Virus record (IMG/VR): IMGVR_UViG_3300032050_000109
Location: 1-64,000 of that record
Strand: one strand, 5' to 3'
Source of the DNA: a virus
DNA: 64,000 bases
Of this stretch, positions 79 through 54,161 are shown in pieces. Numbering within the stretch: position 1 is the stretch's first letter; each line of letters opens with the position of its first letter. Position numbers and translations under genes: made by a program. The notes beneath the pieces were generated by a model, which had not been told where the DNA came from, searched no databases, and worked only from the letters and a program-made list of their open reading frames with translations.

Positions 79-552
79 ATGCCATACAATTTCAATCCAA
101 ACTTTAATAAACATATAAATAATAAAAAGGAATCTTATAAAAATATTAAAAGAACCGGAGAAGAAAACCCTTATTCTAATCCCGACGTGCGTTCAATGAA
201 TAATAATTATAACAATTATAAAAGTCCTAAACTAATTAATTTTATTAATAATGATAATTTTGAAGAAGATGTAAAAATTTATAAACTAGAAGATATTGAC
301 CACCCAAATGGATGGGATTTTAAAGAATTGGATATGTTGGGAGAAATGAATTTTCGTATTGATGATGAATACAAAATGTTTAGTGAAATTGAAATTCCAT
401 CAATAAAAATGGAAAATGAAAAAACAAAAGCCTTCGTCTATAAAACTGACGAAGGCTATGTATTAGAAACAAATAGAAAATACGTTTTTGAAACGTTTAA
501 TAAAATGATTGAATTTATTGATTCAATTCCGATGAATCAGTTAAAGACTTAG
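79..552 (+). CDS. Hypothetical protein, Asn/Lys-rich
   Basis: A protein of 157 residues starting at the ATG at 79 (MPYNFNPNF). The frame is open further upstream to a TTG at 43, but the ATG directly after the stop of the preceding plus-strand frame is the more natural start. The first 60 residues are rich in Asn, Lys and Tyr and look disordered. The second half is acidic and more regular, with a segment around KAFVYKTDEGYVLETN that may be a small beta-hairpin. No family is recognised. It is one of only two or three plus-strand genes here, and its 3' end overlaps the convergent minus-strand gene by 38 bp. A terminator for the opposite strand lies inside its coding sequence. Confidence 0.6.
   Translation: MPYNFNPNFNKHINNKKESYKNIKRTGEENPYSNPDVRSMNNNYNNYKSPKLINFINNDNFEEDVKIYKLEDIDHPNGWDFKELDMLGEMNFRIDDEYKMFSEIEIPSIKMENEKTKAFVYKTDEGYVLETNRKYVFETFNKMIEFIDSIPMNQLKT
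417..457 (-). terminator. Rho-independent terminator of the head operon, inside the convergent gene
   Basis: A perfect 10-bp inverted repeat, AGCCTTCGTC and GACGAAGGCT (429-457) with a 9-nt loop. On the minus strand it is followed by TTTTGTTTTTTC (428 down to 417). It would end transcription of the minus-strand protease/scaffold-region genes about 60 nt after the last stop codon, while lying within the coding sequence of the opposing plus-strand gene. Confidence 0.8.
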
Positions 553-940
553 TGTCGGTTGTCGGAGTGATATCCGCAATTTCAAAATATCTTTCCAAAC
601 GACGACCAACTTCTTCATACAACATTTCTAGTTGTTTTTCAATGGATTTCATTTTTTGTGCTTCTTCGTACATTTTAGCGGCATCACGTTTGATTTCTTT
701 CATGTCACGTTCCACCATCTTAGCTTCCATCCAATCGCCACATTCTTTTAAAGCATAACGTTCGGCCAAGTTAACGGCCTCCATTATTTTTTGAGCGGTA
801 GCATATACTCCCTCAGCTTTTAATCCTTTGCGATATTGATTATAAGCCTTGATAGTTTCAACCATATTTTTCTTTTCATATACGGTAAGTGGAGTATATG
901 CGTGTTCAGTCGAATTTTCTAGTAAATGTTTTAATTTCAT
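515..940 (-). CDS. Coiled-coil protein with capsid-targeting-like leader
   Basis: A 141-residue, highly charged, helical protein encoded 12 bp downstream of the prohead protease. Residues 20-120 are almost entirely predicted helix (repeated E/K/R heptads such as EEAQKMKSIEKQLEMLYEEVGRRLERY), consistent with a coiled coil. The N-terminus MKLKHLLENS has the L-x-E signature cleaved by T4-type prohead proteases. In T4 the gene after the protease encodes the main scaffold gp22, so a prohead core or internal head role is reasonable by position, but there is no recognisable gp22 similarity. The last gene of the minus-strand head operon, it runs into the terminator at 417-457. Confidence 0.8.
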   Translation of the reverse strand: MKLKHLLENSTEHAYTPLTVYEKKNMVETIKAYNQYRKGLKAEGVYATAQKIMEAVNLAERYALKECGDWMEAKMVERDMKEIKRDAAKMYEEAQKMKSIEKQLEMLYEEVGRRLERYFEIADITPTTDTKSLTDSSELNQ

Positions 941-944
941 ACTT

Positions 945-952
945 TATAAATA
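945..952 (-). promoter_or_regulatory. TATTTATA octamer, 4 nt before the 515-940 gene
   Basis: Coding-strand TATTTATA ends 4 nt before the ATG at 940. There is no AAAGG-type ribosome site. Confidence 0.5.
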
Positions 953-1558
953 TTATAGTTCTGATAGAATGTTGTGGATAATTCTTTCAACGTTACTATA
1001 AGGATTAATAATTGTTTTTGATTGATCGACACTTTCATTTATTTTTCCTTGTGGATACATAAACGCTCCTTGTGTACTTGGATTGCTAACAAAATCAAAC
1101 GCTATTAAATCAAAATCGTCTTGTACAACATCTGCGTTTTCTCTCATATCTTTTTTAACAGATCCCAGTCCCCGGCTACTAATTCCCAACAAAATACCAG
1201 CCTTAAGAAGATCTTTCAAAATATTACCACTTGGAGTTGGTAAAATTTCAACCGTACCCATCAAATCTTTACCGTCCCATCCCATGTCAATAATATTATG
1301 ACTAACGTTTTTCAAATTTACAACGGAAGATTCGGGGTGGTCTAATTCACCCATGGCACGACGTTGTTTTACGAAATTGTCCATGTATTTCTCCGATTCT
1401 CTTTTTAAAATTTCGGATGGATATACTCTACCATTTTGATTTTTTGCATCAGCACGTTGAAGAACGCCTGTCACTACCATTTTTCCATCTGAATAAGATT
1501 CATTCAATGACGATTTTTTAAACTCAAATGGTAATACGTCTATTAATACTTGTTTCAT
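953..1558 (-). CDS. 21: Prohead core protein protease (T4 gp21-like)
   Basis: A 201-residue serine protease of the T4 gp21 / herpesvirus-assemblin-like fold (family U9/S78-like), close to the 212 residues of T4 gp21. It matures the prohead by cutting scaffold and internal proteins after Glu in L/I-x-E sites. The family signatures are visible: GELDHPESS with the catalytic His at about residue 74, a Ser in GISSRGLGSV (127-128), and the downstream FDLIAFDFVSNPS segment. It lies just downstream of the portal and two uncharacterised genes, the same general position as in T4 (20-67-68-21). Its presence gives meaning to the L-x-E leaders on several proteins in this window. Confidence 0.93.
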   Translation of the reverse strand: MKQVLIDVLPFEFKKSSLNESYSDGKMVVTGVLQRADAKNQNGRVYPSEILKRESEKYMDNFVKQRRAMGELDHPESSVVNLKNVSHNIIDMGWDGKDLMGTVEILPTPSGNILKDLLKAGILLGISSRGLGSVKKDMRENADVVQDDFDLIAFDFVSNPSTQGAFMYPQGKINESVDQSKTIINPYSNVERIIHNILSEL

Positions 1559-1559
1559 A

Positions 1560-3435: not shown

Positions 3436-3450
3436 AATATTAATATTATT

Positions 3451-3458
3451 TATAAATA
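3451..3458 (-). promoter_or_regulatory. TATTTATA octamer upstream of the 2551-3435 gene
   Basis: The octamer lies 15 nt before the ATG. The surrounding TATTTATAAATA also contains the canonical T4 late-promoter octamer TATAAATA on the coding strand. Confidence 0.45.
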
Positions 3459-3491
3459 TATAAGAACTATTTAAATATATAGTATTTGTAT

Positions 3492-5435
3492 TTATTCTTT
3501 TATATTTCTTTCATCCATAAAGGATTTTTCGTTTCCCTCTCTTAAAATTTGTTTTTCTTGATCAACTGTATTTAACATATCATTAAGTCCTGACAACGAT
3601 TCCAATGATAATGGAGATTTGTTTTTATATTTGTGTGTTACTGATAGATCACTTCGTCTGTTATTTTCTAGCGTACCCAAGGGATCCTCTCCAAACCGAT
3701 ATTTACGAGCATCTTTTCTACCACTTTGATCTCTTTCGGACAATTTTGGAGGAGTTGACCCCGCAGCTCCAGTTGGTTCTTTAGATGGTTCTTTAGATGG
3801 TTCTTTAGTTGGTTCTTTTTGGGGTTCTTCTTTTTTATTACCTGATAGTTCTGAATTTATATCGGAATCTCCTGTGGGTAATCCACTGTCAGAGGGAGGT
3901 TCATCTCCTCCACCTTCTCCATCCGTTTTTTCTTCACTTGATTGCAAAAACTTAATCGCCGGATCATTACCTTCGTCTTCAATTTGCTTAAATCTATAAG
4001 TACCTTTAGCATCATCGACTAATTGTTTTTGTAACTCTATCATGTTTTGATCACTTAAACCAAACACGTTTTCATAAATCCACTTTTTGCTAAAAAACTT
4101 ATTTTCTTGCATGTCTTTAGATACTTCAACTTTACTCTTCCAAACATCTATTTTTTCTTTTTCAAAAATAGTAGATGGATTGGTCAACTCTAACGTAAAA
4201 TCAACAAGTGATTCATCGCGATATCCTTGACTGTATAAATGAATTAAGGCAATCTTATTTAATTCACTTACAATAATTCTCTGTATACGTTGAATCGTTC
4301 TAGCAAAACGAATATCTTCAGCCGCTAACGTAGCTTTACCACTTAAACTTTCATCGTATCCTAAAAATGCTTTTGGAATCTTAAGTGCGGCCATCATCTT
4401 ATTGCGAAGATATTCAATATCGTCTGTACCTGTCCACTCCAATCCGGGCAAATTATCAATGCTTGTACCACTATCACTACCACGAACTGGCAAGAAGAAA
4501 TCTTCAACCATGTTTTGTAAATTGAAACGTAAATTGTAATCGCCTGTTTGTTGATCTACATATGGAACCTTTTTCATCTGAGTCATAATTCGTTCCATAT
4601 GATTGTCAACTTCATTTGGAGGAATATTGCCGATATCAACTTTGAAGATACGTTTTTCAGGAGCACGCATGATACGATGAATTAACATTGCATCTTCCAT
4701 CAAACTCAATTGTTTCCAAACCCGACGAGCACCTTCCAACATACTCTTACCGTATGGCAAGAAGTTACTATCACTTAATAATCTAAAATGTGCAATTTGA
4801 TAATTTTCAAGATCTTCCATTTTATTGCCATATGGAAGATTAACTTGAAATTTTACAAAATTTTTGTTTTGCAAATGTGCATTTTCAACTCGGGTGACAT
4901 AATAAGTGCTTAACGGTTCAACCATATATACACCGTATTCCGGACTAATATGTAAACGAAGATAAAAATCTCCATATTTAACCATACACCGAGTCCAACT
5001 CCATAGATTAAATTCAATATTTAGAATATCATAAAATAAGTTATGAAGTATGTTTTTAATTTCATCATTACTGGATTTAATTTGTAAAATTTCCCCCATT
5101 TCATCTCGCGTGGTACATTCATCGGCATAGATATCCAAAGCAGATGCTAGAATTGGATCCATGTCCATCGTATCATAGTCACGAAATAGTTCTACACGAC
5201 TGCTTTGATATGATAGATTGAAATCTCTGGTATATTGATTATATGAAGTAGTACGTAATCTATTAAAACGATCTCTTAAACTATTACGATCCGTGGCATA
5301 TTGAATTTCATCGGTATCAACTACCTTTAACTTTTTACCGCCAATGTTTCTAACAATTACATCGTTTGAAAACAAACGTTTCAAACGTGCAAACAATGAA
5401 CGATTTCTTAATTCCTGAAATGATTGATCAGCCAT
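3492..5435 (-). CDS. 20: Portal protein (T4 gp20-like)
   Basis: A 647-residue portal vertex protein. Twelve copies would form the channel through which the terminase packages DNA and to which the neck attaches. Clear gp20-family stretches include ELFRDYDTMDMDPILASALDIYADE (about 83-107), the region LSDSNFLPYGKSMLEGARRVWKQLSLMEDAM, and KIPKAFLGYDESLSGKATLAAED. It is longer than T4 gp20 (524 residues) because of a disordered C-terminal extension from about residue 490, which is acidic and Gly-rich and then carries four KEP[TS]-type repeats (KEPTKEPSKEPSKEPT). The gene lies between terminase and protease, as in T4. The extension is probably flexible and is not needed for the portal fold. Confidence 0.96.
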   Translation of the reverse strand: MADQSFQELRNRSLFARLKRLFSNDVIVRNIGGKKLKVVDTDEIQYATDRNSLRDRFNRLRTTSYNQYTRDFNLSYQSSRVELFRDYDTMDMDPILASALDIYADECTTRDEMGEILQIKSSNDEIKNILHNLFYDILNIEFNLWSWTRCMVKYGDFYLRLHISPEYGVYMVEPLSTYYVTRVENAHLQNKNFVKFQVNLPYGNKMEDLENYQIAHFRLLSDSNFLPYGKSMLEGARRVWKQLSLMEDAMLIHRIMRAPEKRIFKVDIGNIPPNEVDNHMERIMTQMKKVPYVDQQTGDYNLRFNLQNMVEDFFLPVRGSDSGTSIDNLPGLEWTGTDDIEYLRNKMMAALKIPKAFLGYDESLSGKATLAAEDIRFARTIQRIQRIIVSELNKIALIHLYSQGYRDESLVDFTLELTNPSTIFEKEKIDVWKSKVEVSKDMQENKFFSKKWIYENVFGLSDQNMIELQKQLVDDAKGTYRFKQIEDEGNDPAIKFLQSSEEKTDGEGGGDEPPSDSGLPTGDSDINSELSGNKKEEPQKEPTKEPSKEPSKEPTGAAGSTPPKLSERDQSGRKDARKYRFGEDPLGTLENNRRSDLSVTHKYKNKSPLSLESLSGLNDMLNTVDQEKQILREGNEKSFMDERNIKE

Positions 5436-5458
5436 ATATTATTCTATTATATAAGTAT

Positions 5459-6652
5459 TTACAATAACCAAGTTAAACTTTCTTTTTTATCATTAACGGA
5501 AAATTCAAGTGTCTTTTGATAATCCGGTATAGAGCTAATTTCTCTAGGTAATATTACAGGACTTGTTACTTTGGATATTTTAGAAATCATAGCTTTATTA
5601 TATGCAATTTGATCGTTTCTAAGCCTCAAAGCAGTTTCACGAACCCATAATCCTATACCAATAGACATCACCAAATCGTCGTTATAACCTCTCATCGCTT
5701 CGGCTTTCGGTCCGTTCCAAATAAATACATTCAATTCTTCGTATAACCGTTTTGATTTGATTATAACTTGTTTTTGTCTAAAAAATAACTCTAAATTACT
5801 CACTATTAATGGTCTATTTTTACTCGTTGTTGTAAACCCAGCGACTAATTTTTTATCTTGCGCGTGTAATTTATTACTATAAGACTTTTCTACATCTACA
5901 ATAGTAAGATCGGTTGCACTATAAAACGTATTCTGATAGTCTCTATCTATAATCTGTTGAAGAGTTCCCCATCCTACGTTGTTATTTTCTACAACTAACA
6001 ATGCGTTATTATATTCAGTAGCTACACTGACTAATAAATTACCGTAATCTTTAGTGGTTAGTTGACCTTTGTATTCAGCCACTTGTTCCATTGTTTCAAT
6101 GTCAATAACATGAAATGCACTAAAATCTCCACCATCTCCTCTAGCACAATCCGCCGTCAATATGTAGTTTTTGCTGTAATTTGGATAATCCCAGATCCAT
6201 AAATCTTGATTGTTACCACGTTTTTCTATAGGATCTTTTAAATATGTTTGTTTGTAAAACTCAAGAACATCTACACTAACAACTTGATTACCAGAAGTAG
6301 AAAAATCACAATTATGTGAAACAATTCCATCTACATTAAAAATATTACCACCTGATACATTTACTATATCATACAAATCAATCGTGTTTTCAAATTTTTC
6401 TATTGATACAACAACCACCTCTATACCATCAACTCCTGATATTTTTGATCCAATACTGATATCATGAGATCGAACCTCGACGTTGTTGTAAATAAATGAA
6501 TGATTATCCGAACATTTTATTATTTTTCCGTTACTCAATAAAATGGTATAATAACAATCTTTTTTTACTTTTCTGATTCCAAAAAAATCCTGATATCCAG
6601 TCGGAGTCAAAATCTGAAATCTAGTATTTAGTTTAATTTTCGAATGATTCAT
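5459..6652 (-). CDS. 17: Split-intein C-part plus terminase large subunit C-terminal half (nuclease)
   Basis: The 397-residue product has two parts. Residues 1-114 are the C-terminal part of a split intein: a start (KIKLNTRFQILTPTGY), a block-B-like CSDNHSF (His51), and the splice end NVDGIVSHN|C (Asn114, Cys115). From Cys115 on it is the terminase C-terminal extein with the RNase-H-fold nuclease: TADCARGDGGDF (Asp168), an acidic strand LLVVENNNVGWG, and the late NDDLVMSIGIGLWV. The resemblance is to the atypically split TerL inteins such as AceL-TerL, which have a very short N-part and a roughly 100-residue C-part. After trans-splicing with the product of 7411-8256, a 529-residue terminase would result (T4 gp17 is 610). 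The gene overlaps the endonuclease gene by 4 bp. Confidence 0.9.
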   Translation of the reverse strand: MNHSKIKLNTRFQILTPTGYQDFFGIRKVKKDCYYTILLSNGKIIKCSDNHSFIYNNVEVRSHDISIGSKISGVDGIEVVVVSIEKFENTIDLYDIVNVSGGNIFNVDGIVSHNCDFSTSGNQVVSVDVLEFYKQTYLKDPIEKRGNNQDLWIWDYPNYSKNYILTADCARGDGGDFSAFHVIDIETMEQVAEYKGQLTTKDYGNLLVSVATEYNNALLVVENNNVGWGTLQQIIDRDYQNTFYSATDLTIVDVEKSYSNKLHAQDKKLVAGFTTTSKNRPLIVSNLELFFRQKQVIIKSKRLYEELNVFIWNGPKAEAMRGYNDDLVMSIGIGLWVRETALRLRNDQIAYNKAMISKISKVTSPVILPREISSIPDYQKTLEFSVNDKKESLTWLL

Positions 6653-7407
6653 ATGTCAATCGTGAACAATTTACACCCTAATAAATTTTTAATTTCATTT
6701 TCTCGTTGGAAATCTCGTTGTTTCAATTTACCATTTTTATAGTGTCTTTTTTCATATATTTCCAACACGACGTTATTTTTCTCATCATATGCATCCAACC
6801 AATAACCAAGTTCTTTAAGAAAAACCTCACCTCCGTTTTCAGCATGTCTAAATGTATATCCATGTTTATTACCAAATTCCTCTATCAGTTGTATTGATCT
6901 CTTGTTATAACGGGGTATAATTTGTCCTTTTGTTTCTGATAGATACTTTAACGCGGATACTCTCATTTTTTGTTTTGTTTCCGGAGTGTGTGATTTACCG
7001 GTCTGGGTTTTATGATATTCAGGACATCTACGACAATATTTAGTCCATGTTATTTTTTTTCCACATTGACATTTCAATTTTATTAAATCGTAGTTATGTT
7101 CAACAATAAAACGAATTCGGTACGAAAAACTATACCATCCCTTGTAACTTTGTTGTTGTTTAAATGATTTTTCTAGAATCTCCGTATGAAAAAGAATAGA
7201 TTTGTATAATTTTGGATTTTGTTTCATCAAAGTTCTATTCTTTGCACGACCAAATAAAAATTTATAATAATCGTTTTTTAACAATTCGGATTTTGTTTCC
7301 TCGGTTGAATATAAATCTGTTTCACAACTTAATTGTTGTTTGATTTTATTCCATCCTATAGATGCATAATTTTTAGGCATATGCGTATGAGTCGCAATCA
7401 CATTCAT
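6649..7407 (-). CDS. Free-standing homing endonuclease, Vsr-like (EDxHD-type), inside the fractured terminase gene
   Basis: A 252-residue protein inserted exactly between the two terminase halves, 3 bp after the stop of the N-terminal half and overlapping the C-terminal half by 4 bp. A cysteine cluster (CQCGKKITWTKYCRRC, about 128-143) probably binds zinc. It is followed by a NUMOD-like DNA-binding segment (SHTPETKQKMRVSALKYL). The C-terminal domain (GYWLDAYDEKNNVVLEIYEKRHY, then NEIKNLLGCKLFTIDI) resembles the Vsr-like endonuclease fold of homing enzymes found in fractured phage genes. It most likely cuts uninterrupted terminase alleles and spreads the interruption. The family call rests on motif reading. 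Context makes a homing role very likely. Confidence 0.8.
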   Translation of the reverse strand: MNVIATHTHMPKNYASIGWNKIKQQLSCETDLYSTEETKSELLKNDYYKFLFGRAKNRTLMKQNPKLYKSILFHTEILEKSFKQQQSYKGWYSFSYRIRFIVEHNYDLIKLKCQCGKKITWTKYCRRCPEYHKTQTGKSHTPETKQKMRVSALKYLSETKGQIIPRYNKRSIQLIEEFGNKHGYTFRHAENGGEVFLKELGYWLDAYDEKNNVVLEIYEKRHYKNGKLKQRDFQRENEIKNLLGCKLFTIDI

Positions 7408-7410
7408 GTA

Positions 7411-8256
7411 TTATACATATAATTGTAAATCCCCAGAATATAACTTTTCCAAAGAAATATCAAATTCTTTTCCAGACAATTTATCTTTAACTCTAACAAC
7501 AGAGTCTCCCCATAGACAATCACATTCTTGTGCGGCTCCTTTCACACCCGACAATTCTGTTTGTTTATCTCTCCAAGTCTGGTCTCTTTCTGGATGTAAA
7601 TGCCATGGCAATCGTATAGTCTTGAAGTTATTTTTACCTTCTTCAGCTTCAACCCAAGTTTTATGGAAGAAGTTACCAACGCCGTTGGGAGTACTTAATA
7701 TAATAGCTCTACCACCGGTAGATAATGTATATTGAGCAGACAGCCAAATTTCCTCAATACCATCGATAAATGCAGCTTCGTCAATAATTAGTAATGATAG
7801 AGCTGATGAACGACCTGCGGTACCGGCAGATGATACCGCTTTGATTTGAGATCCATTCTTCAATCGTAATGATAATCTATTGTCTTCTACACAAGGAACT
7901 TTCAACCAACTTGGAAGATTATCATTTGCAAATCTTACTTTGGTAACGATTTCTTTTGCGGTTTCTTGAGTAATACTAATACAAAGAATATTCTTATCAT
8001 TGTGGAACGTCATTAACCACAAACTATATGCGGCGGTAAGAGTACTAATACCCATCTGACGACTTTTAAGAACAATGTTTAATTGATTATCAACAAACTC
8101 TTCCAAAGCCTCTTCTTGAAATGGGTATAGTTCAAATCCAACTGTTCCTCTTATAGGATGTTGAATCTTAACGTACTTTTTCATGAAGTATATAGGATCT
8201 TCTATACACTTCTTATACTCACTTTTTATTATTTCTCTGAGATTTTGCTGACTCAT
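7411..8256 (-). CDS. 17: Terminase large subunit N-terminal half (ATPase) plus split-intein N-part
   Basis: 281 residues. Residues 1-246 are the packaging ATPase with a Walker A-like SRQMGIST (65-72), Walker B LLIIDEAAF (155-163), and the coupling motif STPNG (about 188-192). From Cys247 (CLWGDSVVRVKDK) the sequence changes to the first splicing block of an intein and stops after 35 residues. This half therefore lacks the nuclease and depends on protein trans-splicing with the product of 5459-6652. The joined extein would read AAQECD|CDFSTSGN across the splice point. The start overlaps the upstream zinc-finger gene by 38 bp. Both halves retain intact active-site motifs, which argues that splicing works. 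Confidence 0.93.
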   Translation of the reverse strand: MSQQNLREIIKSEYKKCIEDPIYFMKKYVKIQHPIRGTVGFELYPFQEEALEEFVDNQLNIVLKSRQMGISTLTAAYSLWLMTFHNDKNILCISITQETAKEIVTKVRFANDNLPSWLKVPCVEDNRLSLRLKNGSQIKAVSSAGTAGRSSALSLLIIDEAAFIDGIEEIWLSAQYTLSTGGRAIILSTPNGVGNFFHKTWVEAEEGKNNFKTIRLPWHLHPERDQTWRDKQTELSGVKGAAQECDCLWGDSVVRVKDKLSGKEFDISLEKLYSGDLQLYV

Positions 8257-8878: not shown

Positions 8879-9913
8879 TTATTTCTTAAACTTACTTCCG
8901 AGACCTTTTATAATAAAACTTCCTGTAATTTTAAATGGGTTAGAACTAATACTGGTATCTCTTACAACTATACCTTCATGTTTATCTAGATCTCCGATTT
9001 CACTTGTAGCATTTTTTAATATTTCATCGCCTAATTTAATCGTAGTTAAATAAACAATTGTATCACTTACCACTTTATTTAAATCTTGCCCAGCAAAATT
9101 TTGACTAATATTTCTACTTTCAACCGCTTTCAAAAATTGTTCTCTTGTAATTAGTGGAGTTGTAAACTTCAAACCTTTCAACCAATCCTTCAAAGACTTA
9201 GTTACAGCTTCACCCGTTGGATACAATGTAACTGGTTGAGTTAAAACACTTGCTAGTTTTGGTTCTGATTTGAAAGTAGTATCAACACTACCCAGCACCT
9301 TAAATCCATACTTCATAGCAATCTTATTTAATTTATTTATATAAGATTGCATCGCTATTTTGTCATATGGAATTTCACTGGCTACTCTCGATTTAACACT
9401 TCCATCTTTACCAAATGTTTTTGGCTTAATTTCTTTCAATCCGTGAATAGCTAAAAAGTTTCCTATTTCGCCATAACCCAAAACATTGGTTTGTCCTTCT
9501 ACATATTCTATATTAAACAATATATTTGGATTATCTAACAATCCTAATTTTTTTAATTCTGATTTTGTACTAGGAATTGATTCATCAAAAATATTAATTA
9601 CTTTGGTACCAATATTTATAAATCCGTGGCCTGGTTCAAATCGACTAGGCAAGTCTTCTGGTCGCATTCCTTTGATATCAAGTGGTTTTGCGCTACCACG
9701 ATCCATCACAAATTGTCCATTTACCAAACGAATACTAGCATTTACACCATCTATTTTAACACTGCCAGCGCCTTGTTTTAATGACTTTACAGATTTAGAA
9801 AATACATCCACTAATTTAGCTCCTGTATTTACAAAATCAAATGGATGTGCCATATGGCCTCCAGCGCCGCCTTCTTGTATTACTTCGTTTAATATATTAT
9901 TCAGCTTTATCAT
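8879..9913 (-). CDS. ATP-dependent ligase-like nucleotidyltransferase with packaging-type leader
   Basis: A 344-residue protein with the motif set of covalent nucleotidyltransferases (DNA/RNA ligases, capping enzymes): motif I KIDG at 53-56 with Lys53 the likely AMP-acceptor, a DRGS segment at 71-74, an acidic motif-III-like NILFNIEYVEG (about 130-140), motif IV HEGIVV (about 312-317), and motif V-like FKITGSFIIKG with lysines near 328 and 336. No C-terminal OB-fold is obvious. It might be an RNA or DNA ligase, or a relative with another role. The N-terminus MIKLNNILNE|V has Glu at position 10 in an L-x-E context, like T4 capsid-targeting leaders. It overlaps the flavoprotein gene by 17 bp, so the two are co-expressed. 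Confidence 0.72.
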   Translation of the reverse strand: MIKLNNILNEVIQEGGAGGHMAHPFDFVNTGAKLVDVFSKSVKSLKQGAGSVKIDGVNASIRLVNGQFVMDRGSAKPLDIKGMRPEDLPSRFEPGHGFINIGTKVINIFDESIPSTKSELKKLGLLDNPNILFNIEYVEGQTNVLGYGEIGNFLAIHGLKEIKPKTFGKDGSVKSRVASEIPYDKIAMQSYINKLNKIAMKYGFKVLGSVDTTFKSEPKLASVLTQPVTLYPTGEAVTKSLKDWLKGLKFTTPLITREQFLKAVESRNISQNFAGQDLNKVVSDTIVYLTTIKLGDEILKNATSEIGDLDKHEGIVVRDTSISSNPFKITGSFIIKGLGSKFKK

Positions 9914-10682
9914 ATGGTTTTAAAAATGTTTTATCAAACACTCTAACTGCTTTATCATAAGAACGTTTAGTTTCGTCTGTATCATCTTGTGTAAATTGCC
10001 AATTCCAGAACAATACATCTGATGTTTTGAATTGGTAATAATCGCCTAATACTGCTCTTTGAGTTTCAACAACTTGTTTACCGTGCCAATTTTGTCCAAC
10101 TGCAATAAATCCAGCTTCAATGTCTTTTACAACATTCTTTTCTCCAAGAGTAGAGTGTCTGTTTTCAATCCAAGTTAAACGTTCAATGAGTTTTTGATAA
10201 TAACCATTAGCTTGACCCCATCTAACACTAGCAAAAAATACTACACAATCACTTTCAAACAGTTCTTTGGTAATCTTCCAAAGTTCATCCCCTTTTTCAT
10301 TAAGACTTGCCCAACAACGATGATATCCACTTGGATTCTTTTCTTTATCTTTTAATAATGCTTTTGCAACGCCACAATGATTTCCGTCGTATTTTAAGTT
10401 GCTACTAACATTGCCTTCACACGGAGCTATATTTAAACTGGGTACTTCAATCAATGTGACTTTTTCTTTACCCAATAATTCTTGTATTTTAATTGCTAAT
10501 TGAGTACTCTTTGGAACATCGTCTTTGTGTTGACTCCATCTATTACTGGTAGTTAACAATAGTACTTTGTTCTTGGTACGTAAATAATCTATTGTTTTTT
10601 TGTATTTACGAGCATAAAGATCCATATCTTGCTCGCTTTGAGGAAGTTTGGCTTCTAACAATAGATCGGTTAAACTAATCAT
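9897..10682 (-). CDS. NAD(P)H-dependent FMN reductase-like flavodoxin-fold protein with packaging-type leader
   Basis: A 261-residue protein of the flavodoxin/NAD(P)H-FMN-reductase type. A first beta strand (KVLLLTTSNRWSQHKDD) leads into a helix. The second nucleotide-binding segment is the characteristic DCVVFFASVRWGQANGYYQKLIERLTWIENRH (about residues 144-175; read in two parts as VVFFASVRWGQANG and YYQKLIERLTWIENRH). Four cysteines (in PCEGNVS, NHCGVA, RCWAS and SDCVV) could bind metal or act in redox. The first ten residues, MISLTDLLLE followed by Ala, match the length and L-x-E|A end of the T4 capsid-targeting sequence. It would reduce or transfer electrons with FMN; the substrate is unknown. 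It overlaps the genes on both sides by a few bases. Confidence 0.78.
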   Translation of the reverse strand: MISLTDLLLEAKLPQSEQDMDLYARKYKKTIDYLRTKNKVLLLTTSNRWSQHKDDVPKSTQLAIKIQELLGKEKVTLIEVPSLNIAPCEGNVSSNLKYDGNHCGVAKALLKDKEKNPSGYHRCWASLNEKGDELWKITKELFESDCVVFFASVRWGQANGYYQKLIERLTWIENRHSTLGEKNVVKDIEAGFIAVGQNWHGKQVVETQRAVLGDYYQFKTSDVLFWNWQFTQDDTDETKRSYDKAVRVFDKTFLKPYDKAE

Positions 10683-10981
10683 TTTAAAAGATTTTCCAAC
10701 TCTTTTTGAAAAGTCATTCCTCTAATAACTTCAGGTGTACCTCCGTTATCTCTATTAAAATAACGTTTATAATTATTTAATGCTATTTTTAACTTTTCTT
10801 TATCCAGTGGCTCTTTTGACAAAATATCTTTTATCGTTTTTAAATTGTTAACAACAAGAACGTTTGTGTCATTTATCACTTGATCTATTAACGAAGAATC
10901 TTTTAACAATTGTTCTTTAACTAAATGATTTGTGTCATTTTCTTGTTTGGCCGTAGCAAGTATAGATTTTAACCGTATCAT
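10679..10981 (-). CDS. Small hypothetical protein
   Basis: A 100-residue helical, charged protein beginning MIRLKSILATAKQEN. I place the start at the ATG at 10981 rather than 12 codons upstream because a TATTTATA octamer ends 4 nt before it, the spacing seen at many other starts in this genome. The last codons overlap the flavoprotein gene start by 4 bp, so it heads that small operon. The N-terminus resembles the hydrophobic leaders of its neighbours but lacks the L-x-E end. No function can be assigned. Confidence 0.65.
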   Translation of the reverse strand: MIRLKSILATAKQENDTNHLVKEQLLKDSSLIDQVINDTNVLVVNNLKTIKDILSKEPLDKEKLKIALNNYKRYFNRDNGGTPEVIRGMTFQKELENLLK

Positions 10982-10985: not shown

Positions 10986-10993
10986 TATAAATA
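10986..10993 (-). promoter_or_regulatory. TATTTATA octamer, 4 nt before the 10679-10981 gene
   Basis: Its position supports the ATG at 10981 as the true start. Confidence 0.5.
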
Positions 10994-15341: not shown

Positions 15342-17465
15342 TTATAACAAATTTTTATCAACCGTTAATTTATTGATTGTATCAATTACTTGATCGGGAG
15401 TTATAGTTTTAGTACATATAAAGTGATCTTTTGTATTTTTATTAACAGGACACCAATTCCAATCTCCTCCGTCTAATTTGTACAAACTATTGTTCCAACA
15501 ACCGTTACAAACCGACTCGTTTATTAATCTATAAGGAGTGGAAAACTCATTGAAAGTTTTAGTAAATCCGCTTATTAAAATTACAGGTTTACGTAATGCC
15601 CAAGCAAGCCAACTAATACCCGAACTCAATCCTATAAAAAATTCGCAGTTATAAAGCCAATTTATCGCATCATTGATATTTTCTGTTTTTGGATGAACCA
15701 CATTATATAAATTTTTTAAATCCATGTAATTTAACGGTTCTTTTTGAATGACAACTACTTTATATCCGATTTTATTCAAATAATCTACAGTTTTTTGCCA
15801 TCCACCGTCATATTGCCAATGTTTACAACCTGACGTTGATGCAGTAGAAATACATACGTATTTTTCATCAAGTTTACGTGTAGTGTTGTTCACAATTATA
15901 CTAGGAGTTATTTCTACGTAATCAAAACCAAGAATATTTGCCGAAATTTCTTGTAAGTTTTGTTCTCTATAATCTTTAGGTGATAAATTTCTGTCGGATG
16001 GGTCAAAACAACCTATTCTATATGTAGCAAAATAATTACTATTTAAATTTTGATTATAATTATAAAAATTTAAATTTGGATATGAGTCTTTAAATATATT
16101 TTTATTTGGTGTGTATATATCAACTATACACTTATGAGTTTTCTGAAATTTATCAATATAAGAAATCCACGATATATAATCTCCAAGTGAAGGAGACTCG
16201 TTTATTATTTTAACATTTTTATTTTCTAAATTAAGATCGTATATAAAAATTTCATTTGTTTCTATATCTTTTATTTCAATTCTCCACGGAATATAATATT
16301 TTTTACTAGCTACACACCACATATTATTGGTGATATCGGTTTCATATAATATTTGACTTGAATTAAGATCTTTCATTTTTATATTATATTTTTTCGTGAT
16401 TGATCCTAATATTTCTACTTTTGGTCCATTATTGAAATCAAAAACAAATTCGTTTTTGATTTCAATCGGATTAATTGGAGACTTATAAGTTATTTCTGTA
16501 TTATTGTATATGTCCACCAATTGTGTAGCCATCGTTTGATTGTTATATATGTTAATTAAATTCATTACAATATTATCCCAACTTTTAATTTTTGATGTAA
16601 ATAAACATTTATTTTTAAATTGTTCATAATTAGCAATGACATAATTGATGCCATTAACAATACAGTCAACGTCTCTTTCAACTTTATACAAACCTTCCAA
16701 TTCGTTATTTTTTTCGTATGTTCCTACTATTGGTAATCCACACCCAATTGATTCCAACAAAGTTAAATTTGGATGACCAGCTTCCAAATCTGATAAATGT
16801 AAAAATATTGAATGTGATTGGTACTCTTTTAATAATTCTTGTTCGTTTAAATTAAATTTTAAAGTTAATTTTTCATAGTCGGAATTGAATTTTTTAAAAA
16901 AATGTTTATTATTTTCTGGACCTGCTATGGTAATAGGTAAATTTAATTTCTCAGCTGCATGTATAGCATATGAAAATCCTTTTCTATCATACGATTTATC
17001 GTGAGCTATACCGTTATTAGCAACACATAACAAACGATGTGTGTTAAAATTATTTTGTGACGGTTTAAAAAATTCGTTATTTACACCGTGACTTAAATAT
17101 AAAACGTTTTTTAAATCAAAATATTCAACCAAATACTTTGCTGGTACAAAAGTCTTCAAAGAATATTTAGCGGCTTCGTAATTTTCTTTAAAAACATTAC
17201 TTTCTTTTGTATACAAAAAAGCGTGGTGATCGTGACATGTAAAAAAATAAGGAATATTTTTATTACGAAGCATAATTGCTAAATTTGCAACGTGTACGTG
17301 TATTACATCATATTTAGATGGATCTATATCATTTAAATATAAAATGTCACATACATGACCCATTTTCTCAAAAGCTTTTTTATATTCCCATATAATTTTT
17401 TCAACCGCCCCCCAACCATTTGGTGGAATTGGTAAAATGCCTGGATGTACTTGTACAATTTTCAT
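15342..17465 (-). CDS. Two-domain glycosyltransferase: GT4-like plus GT9/heptosyltransferase-like
   Basis: About 707 residues from the ATG at 17465 (the frame also extends to a TTG at 17477). Residues 1-300 look like a GT4, GT-B enzyme: MKIVQVHPGILPIPPNGWGA, VIHVHVANLA, FTCHDHHAF, and the sugar-nucleotide segment LSDLEAGHPNLTLLESIGCGLPIVG. A beta-rich linker (about 340-420) follows. From about 430 the sequence resembles GT9 heptosyltransferases of the autotransporter-modifying type: NESPSLGDYISW, CISTASTSGCKHW, GLSSGISWLAWALRKPVILISG, and a Cys-rich end with CNGCWN and WNWCP. It probably glycosylates phage or host surface structures. Donor and acceptor are unknown. Confidence 0.85.
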   Translation of the reverse strand: MKIVQVHPGILPIPPNGWGAVEKIIWEYKKAFEKMGHVCDILYLNDIDPSKYDVIHVHVANLAIMLRNKNIPYFFTCHDHHAFLYTKESNVFKENYEAAKYSLKTFVPAKYLVEYFDLKNVLYLSHGVNNEFFKPSQNNFNTHRLLCVANNGIAHDKSYDRKGFSYAIHAAEKLNLPITIAGPENNKHFFKKFNSDYEKLTLKFNLNEQELLKEYQSHSIFLHLSDLEAGHPNLTLLESIGCGLPIVGTYEKNNELEGLYKVERDVDCIVNGINYVIANYEQFKNKCLFTSKIKSWDNIVMNLINIYNNQTMATQLVDIYNNTEITYKSPINPIEIKNEFVFDFNNGPKVEILGSITKKYNIKMKDLNSSQILYETDITNNMWCVASKKYYIPWRIEIKDIETNEIFIYDLNLENKNVKIINESPSLGDYISWISYIDKFQKTHKCIVDIYTPNKNIFKDSYPNLNFYNYNQNLNSNYFATYRIGCFDPSDRNLSPKDYREQNLQEISANILGFDYVEITPSIIVNNTTRKLDEKYVCISTASTSGCKHWQYDGGWQKTVDYLNKIGYKVVVIQKEPLNYMDLKNLYNVVHPKTENINDAINWLYNCEFFIGLSSGISWLAWALRKPVILISGFTKTFNEFSTPYRLINESVCNGCWNNSLYKLDGGDWNWCPVNKNTKDHFICTKTITPDQVIDTINKLTVDKNLL

Positions 17466-17481
17466 TTTAAATATCAATTTT

Positions 17482-19197
17482 TTAATTTATATAACTACTT
17501 ACATCTTCTGTTTTTTCAGTATACAACAAAATATCGTTTTGATAAACATCTATTTTTTTTGTATTTTTGCTCAAATTATTAAAATTCCAAGCATGTATAC
17601 AAGAAACCGTGTGATTAATATATGTAGTTGTATTATCCGTAAATTCTACTTTTATAAATCTTTTAATTTCGTTGGGTGTATAATTATATGTTAGTAATAT
17701 ATATTCATCTTTGTATTTATACAATCTTGTGGTACATCCTCTATATTTACTGTCGTAATTAGATACCGAGGTTTCAGTATTCCATATGGTATCTTTAAAA
17801 TCATTTTTCATTTGATCTCCACCGGATTTTTTTAAAATTTCATCGTCTTTATTTTTTTTAAGATAATCGTATATAAAAACTTCTACTATTTTAAAATCAT
17901 TATTATTATAAATTTCATGTAAATAATTTTTATAATCTAATTCACATGTTATTTTTTTAATTTTATTTAAAAAATAGTCTATTTCACAATAGAAATAGTG
18001 AAAAGATATGTCCGGTGGATTATTATTATCATTGTAATAAAATAATCCTTTTTTATTTTGAAAAAAACATTCTAATGGAATATTTTTTATATATTTTCTA
18101 GAGTTTGGTCCGTACAAATCGTCAACTTCAAATCTTTGAAAATGTGTATAGCCCAAATTTTTAGCATACATTAAAGAATTAAATAAATTTATTAATACAG
18201 ATAAACCGTGTTTTTGGAGACTATAAGATATATCGTGACATTCCATATTACCAATTAATTTCCAAGTATCTAAATACGGTAAATTAGTATAGGTATCACT
18301 AAACAGGTTATTATTACTATCATATAAATAATATTTAACTCCGTTTATAATGTTTATGTCTATAAGAGTATTAGAAACTAAGAGTACTTCGTGTCCATCT
18401 TCTTTCATCCAATTTAAAGTATTACTTAGTTTATTTTTGATAGCATCGTTATGAACAAAACTATCAATTATAGTAATAGTTTTATTTACATGATGTACAT
18501 ATCTACGTTCTAATTCTCTTTTTATTATTTCATTATTAACATTTTTTTCCTCATCGGTTTTAGTACTAAATACACACGACTCTCTAAACCTATAAATTCC
18601 AACACATTTATCATTATCACAATAACCATCGCCGTTTTTTAAAAGTTCAAAATTAAAAATCCAATCGGGATATGGATAATTCAAAAATTTATCCATTGTA
18701 TTTATTTCTAATCTTCTATACACTCTACCAAAACAAATATAATTTGTTATAAGCAGATCTTTCAATTTAACAATCTTTAAAGAACTACAAACCCAGTGTG
18801 TTTCTGGAAATATTTTATCATTTTGTTTATACTTACATCCAGAAGAATAGACTACATATTGTTTATTATTGTCTAAAAAACTAACGGCTCTTTGAAAATA
18901 ATTTATATCTGTAAGATAATCGTCTCCATCTATATAAAATACGTATTCGCCTTTACATTCTTTATTAAGAATGATTGGATTGTGAGAAACGCCGTAATTA
19001 ACACTGTTATCCAACAATTTCAAATTTTTTAAATGAGAAAATTTACTATGAATAATATTGTAAGTGTTATCATTAGAACCATCATCCCTAACTATTATTT
19101 CATATTCAAAATCAACTTGTTGATTAAGTACAGAATTTACACATTCCTCTATGTACTCTTCAAATTTATAACACGGTATTATTACGCTTAATTTCAT
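17482..19197 (-). CDS. GT2-family glycosyltransferase with C-terminal extension
   Basis: About 571 residues from the ATG at 19197; the longer frame would overlap the upstream gene and lacks a better start. Residues 1-220 are a GT-A, GT2 transferase: MKLSVIIPCYKFEEYIEECV, the nucleotide-binding RDDGSNDNT, and the metal-binding DxD-like YIDGDDYL. The middle and C-terminal two-thirds (NTLIDINIINGVKYYLYDSN onward) are unfamiliar. The region near 300-450 carries many Tyr/Asn residues and FEVDDLYG, possibly a second transferase-like module. The last 80 residues look like a small beta domain. It lies between two other multidomain sugar-modifying genes in a tight array with gaps of 4-16 bp. Confidence 0.85.
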   Translation of the reverse strand: MKLSVIIPCYKFEEYIEECVNSVLNQQVDFEYEIIVRDDGSNDNTYNIIHSKFSHLKNLKLLDNSVNYGVSHNPIILNKECKGEYVFYIDGDDYLTDINYFQRAVSFLDNNKQYVVYSSGCKYKQNDKIFPETHWVCSSLKIVKLKDLLITNYICFGRVYRRLEINTMDKFLNYPYPDWIFNFELLKNGDGYCDNDKCVGIYRFRESCVFSTKTDEEKNVNNEIIKRELERRYVHHVNKTITIIDSFVHNDAIKNKLSNTLNWMKEDGHEVLLVSNTLIDINIINGVKYYLYDSNNNLFSDTYTNLPYLDTWKLIGNMECHDISYSLQKHGLSVLINLFNSLMYAKNLGYTHFQRFEVDDLYGPNSRKYIKNIPLECFFQNKKGLFYYNDNNNPPDISFHYFYCEIDYFLNKIKKITCELDYKNYLHEIYNNNDFKIVEVFIYDYLKKNKDDEILKKSGGDQMKNDFKDTIWNTETSVSNYDSKYRGCTTRLYKYKDEYILLTYNYTPNEIKRFIKVEFTDNTTTYINHTVSCIHAWNFNNLSKNTKKIDVYQNDILLYTEKTEDVSSYIN

Positions 19198-19201
19198 ATG
19201 A

Positions 19202-50156: not shown

Positions 50157-50159
50157 AAA

Positions 50160-51581: not shown

Positions 51582-51588
51582 AATAATA

Positions 51589-51596
51589 TATAAATA
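51589..51596 (-). promoter_or_regulatory. TATTTATA octamer before the fibre group
   Basis: Ends 7 nt before the ATG at 51581; a second TATTAT precedes the ATG. Confidence 0.5.
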
Positions 51597-51599
51597 TAA

Positions 51600-52611: not shown

Positions 52612-52638
52612 TCAATTAATAAATATCAAAAAAATAAA

Positions 52639-52664
52639 AAAGACGTTATGATAATAACGTCTTT
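52639..52664 (-). terminator. Terminator after the 52687-52899 gene
   Basis: 11-bp stem AAAGACGTTAT/ATAACGTCTTT, 4-nt loop, followed on the minus strand by TTTTATTTTTTTGAT. It ends the small early operon that starts at 53151. Confidence 0.88.
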
Positions 52665-52686
52665 ACTAAAAATGTAAGTATTTAAC

Positions 52687-52899
52687 TTAACGTTTTGATT
52701 TTTTCTTTTCCGATTTGATCGGTTGTTTAGGTTCTTGTGCAGAATCGTTACTTTCTAACTGCGTTATTCTAATTTTTGCAGTTGAAAGCCAAGCACGTTT
52801 AGTAAACGGAGACGCAAATTCAAATGTTTTACTTAACTTTAGTAATTCATCAATTTCTTGTCTTGAATTTGAATGTTTAATTTGTTCTCTAACCCCCAT
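52687..52899 (-). CDS. Small hypothetical protein, early operon
   Basis: A 70-residue protein (MGVREQIKHSNSRQEIDELL) with two charged helices and a lysine-rich tail. Its ribosome site GAAAGG overlaps the end of the preceding 59-residue gene (stop at 52902-52904), so translation is probably coupled. Terminator follows. Function unknown; expression from the TTGACA/TATAAT promoter suggests an early role. Confidence 0.7.
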   Translation of the reverse strand: MGVREQIKHSNSRQEIDELLKLSKTFEFASPFTKRAWLSTAKIRITQLESNDSAQEPKQPIKSEKKKSKR

Positions 52900-52901
52900 A
52901 A

Positions 52902-53081
52902 TTATTTACCTTTCACTTCAACTATTTCAAGTTTACTACCATCTGGCCATCTTTTGATAATGCTAGACCAATGATCGTATTCTACTTTAGCTTCATCCTT
53001 AGTCAAATAGTCTAATTCAGACACTCTTAGACCGTTTCTAATAACAGCAAACTTTGTTATTTGTTCTTTTTTTGTTAACAT
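52902..53081 (-). CDS. Small hypothetical protein of 59 residues, early operon
   Basis: Read directly from the sequence: ATG at 53081, stop at 52902-52904. The product starts MLTKKEQITKFAVIRNGLRV and contains HWSSIIKRWPDGSKLEIVEV. It looks like a small folded domain (helix-turn then beta). It is the first gene after the promoter at 53159-53186 and is followed after 2 bp by the next small gene. Function unknown. Confidence 0.72.
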   Translation of the reverse strand: MLTKKEQITKFAVIRNGLRVSELDYLTKDEAKVEYDHWSSIIKRWPDGSKLEIVEVKGK

Positions 53082-53127
53082 ATATTACAAATATATTTTC
53101 GTTTATTACTCGGTATTTTTTTACAAA

Positions 53128-53148
53128 TTCAAGATTACCGGTCTTGAA
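53128..53148 (-). promoter_or_regulatory. 7-bp hairpin at the 5' end of the early transcript
   Basis: Perfect inverted repeat TTCAAGA-N7-TCTTGAA. It starts about 4 nt after the predicted transcription start and would cap the RNA 5' end, or could be an operator overlapping the start site. Confidence 0.55.
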
Positions 53149-53158
53149 CTATAACTAA

Positions 53159-53186
53159 ATTATACATAGAATAACTCATATGTCAA
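53159..53186 (-). promoter_or_regulatory. Consensus sigma-70-type promoter
   Basis: TTGACA (53181-53186), 16-bp spacer, TATAAT (53159-53164), both perfect. It drives the two small genes at 53081-52687. Confidence 0.85.
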
Positions 53187-53244
53187 TCTTAATTTTAATT
53201 TATAATAACTAACTTTTATTGTATACAACTATGTATATCTACAT

Positions 53245-53523
53245 ATGAGCGATATCGTAAAATTTACAGAAGAAGAAATACAATCAATAGCTAAATTACA
53301 GTCTGATTATCAACAGTCAATTTATACACTCGGTCAATTAGATTTAGAAAAAACTGATTTACAACTTCAATTGGACGAAATTACTAAAAAACGTACTGAG
53401 ATATATGACAACTGGAAAAAACTTCAACAACAAGAAGTCAATATTTTAAATTCGTTGAGTCAAAAATATGGAGATGGAAGTTTAAACTTAAAAGACGGTA
53501 CGTTTAGACGAATATCAAAATAA
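53245..53523 (+). CDS. Small coiled-coil protein on the plus strand
   Basis: A 92-residue protein (MSDIVKFTEEEIQSIAKLQS) with a long helical coiled coil (DLEKTDLQLQLDEITKKRTE) and a short C-terminal beta-like end (GDGSLNLKDGTFRRI). It runs opposite to almost all other genes and is divergent from the early minus-strand operon. It ends in a shared terminator. I have no family name for it, though the last 25 residues resemble endings seen in phage proteins of this type. Confidence 0.72.
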   Translation: MSDIVKFTEEEIQSIAKLQSDYQQSIYTLGQLDLEKTDLQLQLDEITKKRTEIYDNWKKLQQQEVNILNSLSQKYGDGSLNLKDGTFRRISK

Positions 53524-53529
53524 TAAAAA

Positions 53530-53558
53530 ATAAAACCCGGTGTAAAACCGGGTTTTAT
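53530..53558. terminator. Bidirectional terminator between convergent genes
   Basis: 12-bp stem ATAAAACCCGGT/ACCGGGTTTTAT with a 5-nt loop and A/T-runs on both sides, so it can stop both the plus-strand gene at 53245-53523 and the minus-strand genes from 54161. Confidence 0.88.
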
Positions 53559-53559
53559 A

Positions 53560-53751
53560 TTAGTTAATTTTCGTTGGATCTCCAATTGAAGCTTCTTCTA
53601 CAATAGCTTTAATTTCAGATTCAATTTCTTTCATACGTTCTTTATAGCCAGCGGCTACATCTTTAAAATCCTTTTTAACATGTAAAAGATCTTCTGTTAA
53701 TTGATATACTTTTTTCTCAGCTTCTGATTTTGTTAATTTAATATTACTCAT
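53560..53751 (-). CDS. Small helical protein
   Basis: A 63-residue, highly charged helical protein, MSNIKLTKSEAEKKVYQLTE, probably a coiled coil. Its ATG overlaps the stop of the ART-like gene by 4 bp, so both are translated together. Unknown function; as partner of an ART-like effector it could be an accessory protein. Confidence 0.7.
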   Translation of the reverse strand: MSNIKLTKSEAEKKVYQLTEDLLHVKKDFKDVAAGYKERMKEIESEIKAIVEEASIGDPTKIN

Positions 53752-54161
53752 AATGTTTTTAAATTTAAAACTTGCGTTACGGCTTCCTTCGGTATATAAG
53801 TAGTAACATAATTTCCAGGATCTACACTTTTCAAATCAGGTAACTTACTTTTATCAACAGTTACAATTATACCGTTATTTTTATTCCTGAAATTAACTAA
53901 AGCAAAACGTGCCGCTAATTTAAAATCACTAGATAAATAACTGCCGATTATATTTCTAGTATTACCTGTGCCTCTAGATGTTACTTTACCAGTAGTATTT
54001 AAAATATTGTATTCTGCTTCAGACATACCTCTATATAGTTTACTACTATCACTTGAAAATTTGTCAAGTTCATCTGCAATATATTGTAACCTACCAGTAG
54101 GTTCCCATATTAAATAATCATATATGCTACTAGCTTCGTATAGTAAACTGTACTTCTTCAT
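53748..54161 (-). CDS. ADP-ribosyltransferase-like protein with packaging-type leader
   Basis: A 137-residue protein. After a leader MKKYSLLYE|A (L-x-E at 7-9), the body has the layout of small ADP-ribosyltransferases: KLYRGMSEAE with Arg44, then GSYLSSDFKLAARFAL (73-88) in the place of the S-T-S motif and its helix, strand GIIVTVDKS, and IPKEAVTQ with Glu126 as the candidate catalytic glutamate. This R-S-E order is what I see; the ART call is inference without a search. T4 packages the ART Alt in its head by an N-terminal leader cut by gp21, so the combination here is a strong parallel. A TATTTATA octamer ends 4 nt before the ATG. Confidence 0.65.
   Translation of the reverse strand: MKKYSLLYEASSIYDYLIWEPTGRLQYIADELDKFSSDSSKLYRGMSEAEYNILNTTGKVTSRGTGNTRNIIGSYLSSDFKLAARFALVNFRNKNNGIIVTVDKSKLPDLKSVDPGNYVTTYIPKEAVTQVLNLKTL

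Follow-up and report, generated by a model that had tools for sequence, protein, structure and literature searches.

Introduction

In bacteriophage T4, the internal proteins IPI, IPII and IPIII and the protein Alt carry a short N-terminal capsid-targeting sequence (CTS), and the protease gp21 belongs to the same system. According to the T4 review PMC9026906, ten residues at the N-terminus of IPIII are sufficient for targeting. Residues 4 and 7 govern targeting and residues 8 and 10 processing; an Asp at position 10 stops the cutting but not the targeting, and the cuts follow L/I-x-E (PMC9026906). Alt and the internal proteins are ejected by T4, and the same review already raises the idea that T4-like phages may use the CTS to package a range of proteins (PMC9026906). 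Here we describe a set of N-terminal leaders encoded in a 64,000-nucleotide stretch of DNA, called the window here (positions 1 to 64,000 of the 65,683-base IMG/VR virus record IMGVR_UViG_3300032050_000109), which comes from an uncultured phage of the T4 superfamily. The leaders stand in front of a flavoprotein, an RNA-ligase-like protein, a protein resembling ADP-ribosyltransferases (ART-like) and others. They are conserved in orthologues, enriched at protein starts, shared by unrelated proteins and linked to phages that encode an S77 protease. We consider it probable that they form a T4-type capsid-targeting leader system with other leader residues and other cargo.

Three further systems are close enough for comparison. 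The capsid signal of the P1 protein DarB is likewise N-terminal and is enough to take a reporter to the capsid; it differs, as far as the descriptions can be compared, in its length of 30 residues and in that the Dar N-termini show no consensus in the available part of PMC9024508. Head proteins of phiKZ and SPN3US carry propeptides, and a diverged protease resembling gp21 cuts them, likewise behind a Glu (PMC9026906). The multidomain polyvalent proteins of phages, predicted to be packed in heads (PMC5512222), are taken up below with the fusion proteins. phiKZ differs from the phages discussed here in having no match to the Pfam protease family PF03420. The phiKZ cut motif is different from L/I-x-E. 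The background was drawn from the available parts of PMC3012670, PMC9026906, PMC9024508, PMC5512222, PMC9503650 and PMC7824862. In titles and abstract openings we found neither such leaders in these phages nor a T4-type head packed with a flavoprotein or an RNA ligase, most subscription papers being outside reach.

Leaders encoded in the window

The open reading frames (ORFs) in every count were called with our own simple ORF finder, and no annotation was used. A preliminary description of the window had reported four proteins with similar N-termini, and all four N-termini were found as described (a slash marks the predicted cut). They are MKLKHLLE/N of a coiled-coil protein (515–940, leader 917–940), MIKLNNILNE/V of the RNA-ligase-like protein (8879–9913), MISLTDLLLE/A of the flavoprotein (9897–10682, leader 10653–10682) and MKKYSLLYE/A of the ART-like protein (53748–54161, leader 54135–54161), all on the minus strand. 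The ligase leader (9872–9913) has two L/I-x-E sites in tandem, LNE/V at residue 10 and IQE/GG at residue 14. The gp21-type (S77) prohead protease reported at 953–1558 (minus strand) is also there, with matches to PF03420 (E=1.6e-28) and to PHROG 207, head maturation protease (5.1e-54). Two leader families had been overlooked, that of 10679–10981, treated below, and that of 62427–62855 (minus strand), in which a 20-residue leader, MTKNDFKKIIKQLTREILFE/D (62796–62855), ends in an L-x-E that two relatives keep with a variable middle residue (EILVE/D and EVLNE/D). The L/I-x-E end is common to these five proteins.

As in T4, the leaders are short N-terminal peptides with hydrophobic positions 4 and 7 and an L/I-x-E end, the mature proteins are unrelated, and an S77 protease is encoded in the same genome. 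The flavoprotein and ligase leaders match T4 positions 4, 7, 8 and 10 exactly, which is a match of sequence positions, and the 8–9-residue leaders of the coiled-coil and ART-like proteins are shifted relative to them. The differences are the consensus, MIKLxxLLxE here and MKTYQEFIAE in T4, a candidate cargo that includes flavoprotein-like and RNA-ligase-like proteins, and a leader-like tail at the C-terminus of the protease.

For core binding, cutting, packaging and injection we propose the same course as in T4. The leader would comprise 8–10 residues (20 in one protein) of the form M-x(n)-Phi-x-x-Phi-(Phi)-x-E, where Phi is hydrophobic. Its hydrophobic positions would bind the assembling prohead core in the manner of T4 residues 4 and 7, and the S77 protease would cut after the Glu of L/I-x-E and release the protein inside the head. 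The freed protein would then enter the host together with the DNA. The candidate cargo consists of the flavoprotein, the RNA-ligase-like enzyme, the ART-like protein and 62427–62855; redox and RNA-repair roles may be guessed from weak family matches.

Conservation of the leaders

Pattern scans of IMG/VR found 133 stretches encoding relatives of the flavoprotein and 171 encoding relatives of the ligase, and 80 of each were kept. Residues I2, L4, D6, L7, L8, E10 and A11 of the flavoprotein leader are invariant in 8/8 aligned sequences, and 85/85 listed flavoprotein ORFs start with a leader that fits MI[SK]LxD[LI]L-x(1,2)-E. The pattern used to extract flavoprotein sequences for codon variation already demanded most leader residues; the unbiased evidence is the ORF listing and the alignment.

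In the ligase leader, E10 and E14 are invariant in all 12 aligned sequences, and the second site reads [ILM]-x-E/GG. The form [LIM]xE/GG occurs in 127 of 129 orthologues, and all but three of the 129 listed ligase ORFs fit MI[KRT][LF]xx[IL]LxE[VM][ILM]xE/GG. When the motif was not demanded at extraction, 28 distinct sequences had L4 in 27 (with five Leu codons), L8 in 28 and E10 in 28, with N, S, T, Y or L at position 9. Selection on the leader thus acts on amino acids, since synonymous codons vary where the residues stay.

The ART-like leader is present in nine of ten aligned sequences including the window, as MK[RKS]Y[SR]LLYE or MRIYSLLYE. The tenth, from the 8.6-kb contig L241, starts at the residues that follow the leader elsewhere, with its ATG overlapping a TAA, and this contig has no PF03420 match. 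We count this leaderless homologue in favour of the proposed leader system.

The preliminary description had also assigned folds, and these labels proved weaker than stated there. For the flavodoxin-fold, NADPH:FMN-reductase-like protein, the FMN_red match (PF03358; E=0.0054) scores 16.7 bits against a cut-off of 24, two of eight orthologues match at E<=0.05, and a PDB profile search with the alignment returned one weak chain (E=0.089). Neither this protein nor the ligase-like protein had a phage-collection tblastn match at E<=1e-5, and a pattern scan of cellular genomes, sensitive to close relatives only, gave no flavoprotein relative. The small protein at 53748–54161 looks ART-like, a label not borne out by Pfam, PDB profiles or a usable model. 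The family search gave TreTu_C only, in three of ten members (best E=0.006; the window copy scores 16.3 bits against a cut-off of 27), and the AlphaFold2 model, with a predicted local distance difference test (pLDDT) score of 43.7, was unusable for a fold search. The Glu that we take to be the catalytic ART residue is replaced by Gln in the homologue of contig L236.

S77 protease and head module

An S77 protease is present in 20/20 long contigs examined that carry the flavoprotein or the ligase, and in 13/13 contigs longer than 20 kb that encode distant relatives of the ligase, described below. The window protease itself ends in a tail, IIHNILSE/L (956–982, minus strand), whose Phi-x-x-Phi-Phi-x-E resembles the cargo leaders. 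SEL after N/D-I-[LI] forms the end of 15 of 16 distinct window-type proteases, and SDL replaces it in one (L174). Similar ends are LIRDILGE/IK in the related genome G013 and ISKIICE/I near the end in Microcystis phage Mel-JY01. Among proteins generally, the tail pattern falls within the last 12 residues in 20/1261. Window-group proteases also have [SA]L[NT]E/S close to the N-terminus; in the T4 review, propeptides of gp21 are suggested to behave perhaps like a CTS (PMC9026906).

The coiled-coil protein comes after gp21 in the head module, and its orthologue takes the same place in Mel-JY01 (hhalign 98.5%). Its starts are MKLKHLLE/N or, in several relatives, MIKLKHLVE/N; the diverged G013 copy begins MIKLTEIAE/A, followed by an 18-residue insertion just past the leader. 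Because of its position after gp21, it is probably a prohead core protein and not a cargo enzyme. The earlier T4-type interpretation of the leaders is supported by comparative sequence evidence, namely conservation at the T4 positions, one leader on unrelated proteins, the S77 link, and the gene clustering and late-promoter-like elements treated below. One of its four proteins is probably no cargo enzyme.

The place of the coiled-coil protein, like that of a core protein, also bears on another explanation, namely that the leaders do target the prohead and the proteins serve head assembly or remain in the head, without being delivered as enzymes. The C-terminal domain of 62427–62855 recurs in a head protein that relatives encode beside the protease (starting, for example, MKKLLKE/SGDPF), and the ligase-like gene lies a few genes ahead of the terminase in both the window and Mel-JY01; both facts would suit such a role. 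Flavodoxin-like proteins, and ligase-like ones that conserve motif I, are, however, unexpected as structural parts, and T4 offers the precedent of ejected Alt and internal proteins (PMC9026906). We regard a purely head-bound role as unlikely, and prefer delivery as cargo.

Enrichment tests and controls

The leaders were compared with internal Met positions of the same proteins as controls. The first pattern, leader-A (M-I-K-L-x-x-L-L-x-E), was written after the window, Mel-JY01, Flavobacterium phage immuto and the genomes G002, G005 and G013 had been viewed. For this reason the fair figure comes from a held-out set (G021, G022 and G023, with 12 known discovery families removed), in which 7/442 families match against 1/1934 internal Met (p=5e-5); a few of the seven look like false positives (for example, a helicase). 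In the window, leader-A begins 3/57 starts against 0/162 internal Met (p=0.017), and in the eight window-group genomes 40/1397 starts against 6/3531. As some of these genomes are close relatives, a subset of five was taken (window, G002, G013, G023 and G022); it gave 20/460 against 2/1476 (Mantel–Haenszel z=7.4). With one start per ORF, the single genomes gave 6/102 against 0/256 (G005), 6/115 against 2/452 (G002), 6/114 against 3/475 (G003), 2/56 against 0/192 (G013), 4/76 against 0/406 (G023), 4/346 against 1/1302 (G021) and 5/156 against 0/286 (G022). Among isolates, we counted 3/220 against 1/852 in Mel-JY01, 4/214 against 1/686 in immuto, 1/248 against 0/817 in phiN3 and 2/243 against 2/829 in Acinetobacter phage 133; there were no leader-A starts in T4 (0/246), ACG-2014d, SPO1 or K. 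The window-group proteins fall into 551 families, built on protein bodies minus the first 25 residues, and 19 of these match leader-A, some of them false positives. The claim that unrelated proteins share one leader is upheld by this result.

The second pattern, R1 (M-x(1-5)-Phi-x-x-Phi-[LI]-x-E), follows published T4 positions, but was written after the leaders had been viewed. Pooled over seven S77-positive isolates it matches 41/1710 starts against 29/5686 internal Met (odds ratio 4.7, z=7.0), and it is not enriched in the three phages that lack a PF03420 match, SPO1, K and phiKZ (8/731 against 18/2553, odds ratio 1.4, z=0.8; phiKZ alone p=0.097). phiKZ is an imperfect negative control: by PMC9026906 it encodes a diverged relative of gp21, which PF03420 misses. 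Taken singly, T4 (p=8.5e-5), immuto (2.7e-7) and Mel-JY01 (0.007) are significant, and the held-out set gives a weaker signal than with leader-A (11/442 families against 18/1934, p=0.011). In T4, R1 matches IPII, IPIII and gp24, which are three of nine known gp21 substrates, against 7/237 other genes (p=0.0036); nine of the ten named substrates were counted because gp67 is missing from the T4 ORFs of our finder. In an unbiased test, N-terminal 12-mers were compared pairwise across proteins that are not homologous; it recovers the leader of the T4 internal proteins and several immuto leaders. At a score of at least 20 it found 5 pairs in G005 against 4.3 in the control, 2 against 1.0 in G013 and 7 against 2.4 in G002 (control maximum 6), which for these close relatives of the window is no clear excess over the control.

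Several observations weigh against a T4-type leader system. In the window alone, the alike length and L/I-x-E end that the preliminary description had stressed are at the level of chance. The loose [LI]xE rule matches 4/57 starts against 7/162 internal Met (p=0.31), R1 is weak (2/57 against 0/159, p=0.069), and the pairwise test found one pair at the same score against a control mean of 0.9. R1 is not significant singly in ACG-2014d, phiN3, Acinetobacter phage 133 and Va3, and the protease tail pattern is absent from T4, Va3, ACG-2014d and phiN3, with INNILRA in immuto. Ten contigs were picked because they carry the ART-like gene, and S77 was seen in only six of them; all ten are records that may be fragments. 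No S77 gene was seen in the 115-kb record of G022, which supplies much of the enrichment. The ART-like leader has a different spacing (Phi-x-Phi-Phi-x-E). The first gene of the flavoprotein–ligase operon (10679–10981, minus strand) has the leader MIRLKSIL and belongs to a family that starts MI[RL]LT[RQK]I[IV]E/D in relatives; its window copy lacks the Glu and with it the cut site, and G005 87708 has Asp in its place. Two of the 129 ligase orthologues start MIKISKLLVSLFEN, without E/GG, and one other ORF starts past the leader; seven of the 80 distant ligase domains treated below have LLLM/GG in place of the site. Finally, shared N-terminal words occur also in phage K, which has no PF03420 match.

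The loose rule and the pairwise test in the window would agree with a likeness that came from chance and base composition, proteins of AT-rich phages commonly starting with K, I, L and E. The controls largely dispose of this explanation, though perhaps not for the ART-like protein taken alone: in the five-genome comparison starts and internal Met come from the same proteins, and orthologues conserve the leaders. We therefore give chance very little credit. A shared leader beyond chance is upheld when relatives are included, with the stricter leader-A and the leaders kept by orthologues; it fails in the window by a loose rule of about 8–11 residues.

The shared N-termini of phage K and the lack of leader-A in T4 would agree with a recurrent amphipathic helix of another role, such as docking to a phage or host complex or translation coupling, in which L/I-x-E is incidental. 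The Glu is among the most conserved residues of the leaders, with a variable residue before it, which speaks against such a helix. Selection on amino acids and not codons, and an R1 enrichment that tracks S77, also speak against it. A helix of this kind seems improbable to us, and a leader that targets the capsid and is cut remains the preferred explanation.

Should the preferred explanation hold, sequence would be enough to read which proteins uncultured T4-like phages carry in their virions, since a tag some ten residues long would name the injected ones. The T4-like injected proteins beyond Alt and the internal proteins would become a list that N-terminal proteomics can test. Flavin redox enzymes, RNA-ligase-like enzymes and a distant kinase/NMNAT-like/ligase-like polyprotein would be added to the classes of T4-type head cargo.

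RNA-ligase-like protein and distant fusions

The RNA-ligase-like protein is a putative nucleotidyltransferase with the motif I KIDG. KxDG is invariant in the ligase-like alignments. The window protein scores 14.3 bits with RNA ligase PF09414 (E=0.046), under the curated cut-off of 27, and sub-cut-off RNA_ligase matches were seen in 4 of 12 orthologues. A Foldseek search with the predicted model (pLDDT 62) placed RNA ligases on top with weak scores (best E=0.068; none at E<=0.001). No match came from searching PDB profiles with the alignments of the ligase, the ART-like protein and the distant ligase. Motif I, the sub-threshold Pfam matches and the weak fold matches hint at an RNA ligase function.

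A homologous domain occurs in more distant phages (about 140 aligned columns, hhalign 96.4%, E=1.4e-9), and here 14/17 sequences match RNA_ligase at E<=0.1 (best 0.0081). In Mel-JY01 it is the C-terminal part of a 639-residue protein that starts MGKLINILLSE/L and has a CTP-transferase/NMNAT-like domain barely above the Pfam cut-off. In IMG/VR, 304 stretches with the distant ligase domain were found, of which 80 were kept; the contig end cuts the ORF in 60, and the other 20 have the domain in ORFs of roughly 1050–1420 residues. Eleven of 15 distinct N-termini of uncut fusions have the leader pattern (for example, VKPFLKE/D), with the ligase domain C-terminal. In Mel-JY01 as in these eleven distant fusions, the pattern thus sits at the N-terminus of the polypeptide, away from the ligase domain. 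Counting the motif within the first 22 residues gave 11/47 fusion ORFs (internal windows 1.7%), a figure that we do not treat as a rate, the true start being missing from many of these ORFs.

Five fusions were scanned for domains. Four have a P-loop kinase/Zeta-toxin-like match over the cut-off, and the fifth has no match; the same four have an NMNAT-like (CTP transferase) match, above the cut-off in three. In three of six fusions examined, an internal Phi-x-x-Phi-L-x-E separates the NMNAT-like part from the ligase part, and [LI]-x-E/GG precedes the ligase-like domain in 72 of 80 distant sequences (one is cut off). Fusions with both leader and internal L/I-x-E are L389:938–4795, L416:899–4033 and L425:542–4810, with lengths of 1045–1423 residues. 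Like polyvalent proteins, these are multidomain; they differ in that a leader and an internal site of L/I-x-E type in a kinase/NMNAT-like/ligase-like fusion are not described in the available part of PMC5512222. The immuto protein gp088, annotated as NadR-like, was considered as a further ligase homologue and was rejected by profile comparison.

A bolder proposal, which we hold tentatively and think doubtful as a whole, is that one cargo code, Phi-x-x-Phi-Phi-x-E, runs through the wide T4 superfamily and marks proteins that are packed, cut by S77 and injected. Here it would deliver an RNA-repair machine that mends tRNAs cut by host defence from the start of infection. The distant kinase/NMNAT-like/RNA-ligase-like polyprotein would be cut into separate enzymes in the head, and in the window the ligase part would stand alone beside a redox enzyme.

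Genome context

The minus strand of the window encodes the terminase, portal, S77 protease and tail genes. The gp20-like portal of the head module (3492–5435, minus strand) was identified by tblastn to annotated T4-superfamily portals. Among the best 40 of 2473 phage-collection records, Mel-JY01 came first, with 55.6% identity over 74%. The best matches of the S77 protease are Mel-JY01 (58.2%) and immuto (53.6%).

Genes with leaders cluster close to the terminase and the head genes, in regions that were picked by eye throughout. Of the 13 matches in immuto, 8 fall in a region of 31 out of 214 genes (p=6e-5); of the seven in G002, five fall in 20 out of 115 (p=0.0017). The clustering is weaker in G005 (p=0.019), G013 (0.029) and Mel-JY01 (0.027). 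A value for G022 was not used because its region was picked after the matches were known.

The element TATTTATA, a putative late promoter by its likeness to that of T4, precedes the coiled-coil gene (945–952) and the flavoprotein–ligase operon (10986–10993). The similar TATATTTATA precedes the ART-like gene (54166–54175) and 62427–62855 (62860–62869), all on the minus strand. TATTTATA occurs no more than 40 bases upstream of 12 of the 62 window ORFs, against 0.5 expected. It or a near variant precedes the genes of the coiled-coil and ART-like proteins, 62427 and 10679, one head-module gene and some tail- or fibre-like ORFs. It often sits a few bases from the start codon; so near the ATG, a late promoter would yield nearly leaderless mRNAs.

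Two more window proteins were considered as leader cases. The protein at 58955 (IIVE/A; trypsin-like by eye) was rejected because its G002 relative has IIDQ, and the N-terminus at 57326 could not be judged, its sole match being a copy in G005. In another contig, a protein resembling CCA-adding enzymes (L278:5450–6889; PolyA_pol 8.4e-21, HD) starts MITFKNLLVE/G. Other N-termini recur on different proteins of immuto (L247–L250), namely MENFDLKKFLVEN, MKKSQLRxII and MKKQILSEQFxRMQxLAGIITES. A 24-residue form of MENFDLKKFLVEN occurs at four places in each of four immuto records and in no other record at E<=1. In phage K (L335–L342; no PF03420), three proteins start MDFNQFINNEAS, MDFNDFINSESD and MDFYQFLNHENV, possibly a leader of another kind.

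The large terminase subunit (5459–8256) is split, as judged by eye, by an intein-like insert and a separate ORF resembling homing endonucleases (6649–7407). A phage-encoded transfer-messenger RNA with the tag AEDNVISYDFSYDDVAVAA and 15 tRNAs lie at 54201–54583 and 55407–63908. Three large glycosyltransferase-like ORFs, seen by eye only, occupy 15342–21841, with the sheath to one side and recombination genes to the other.

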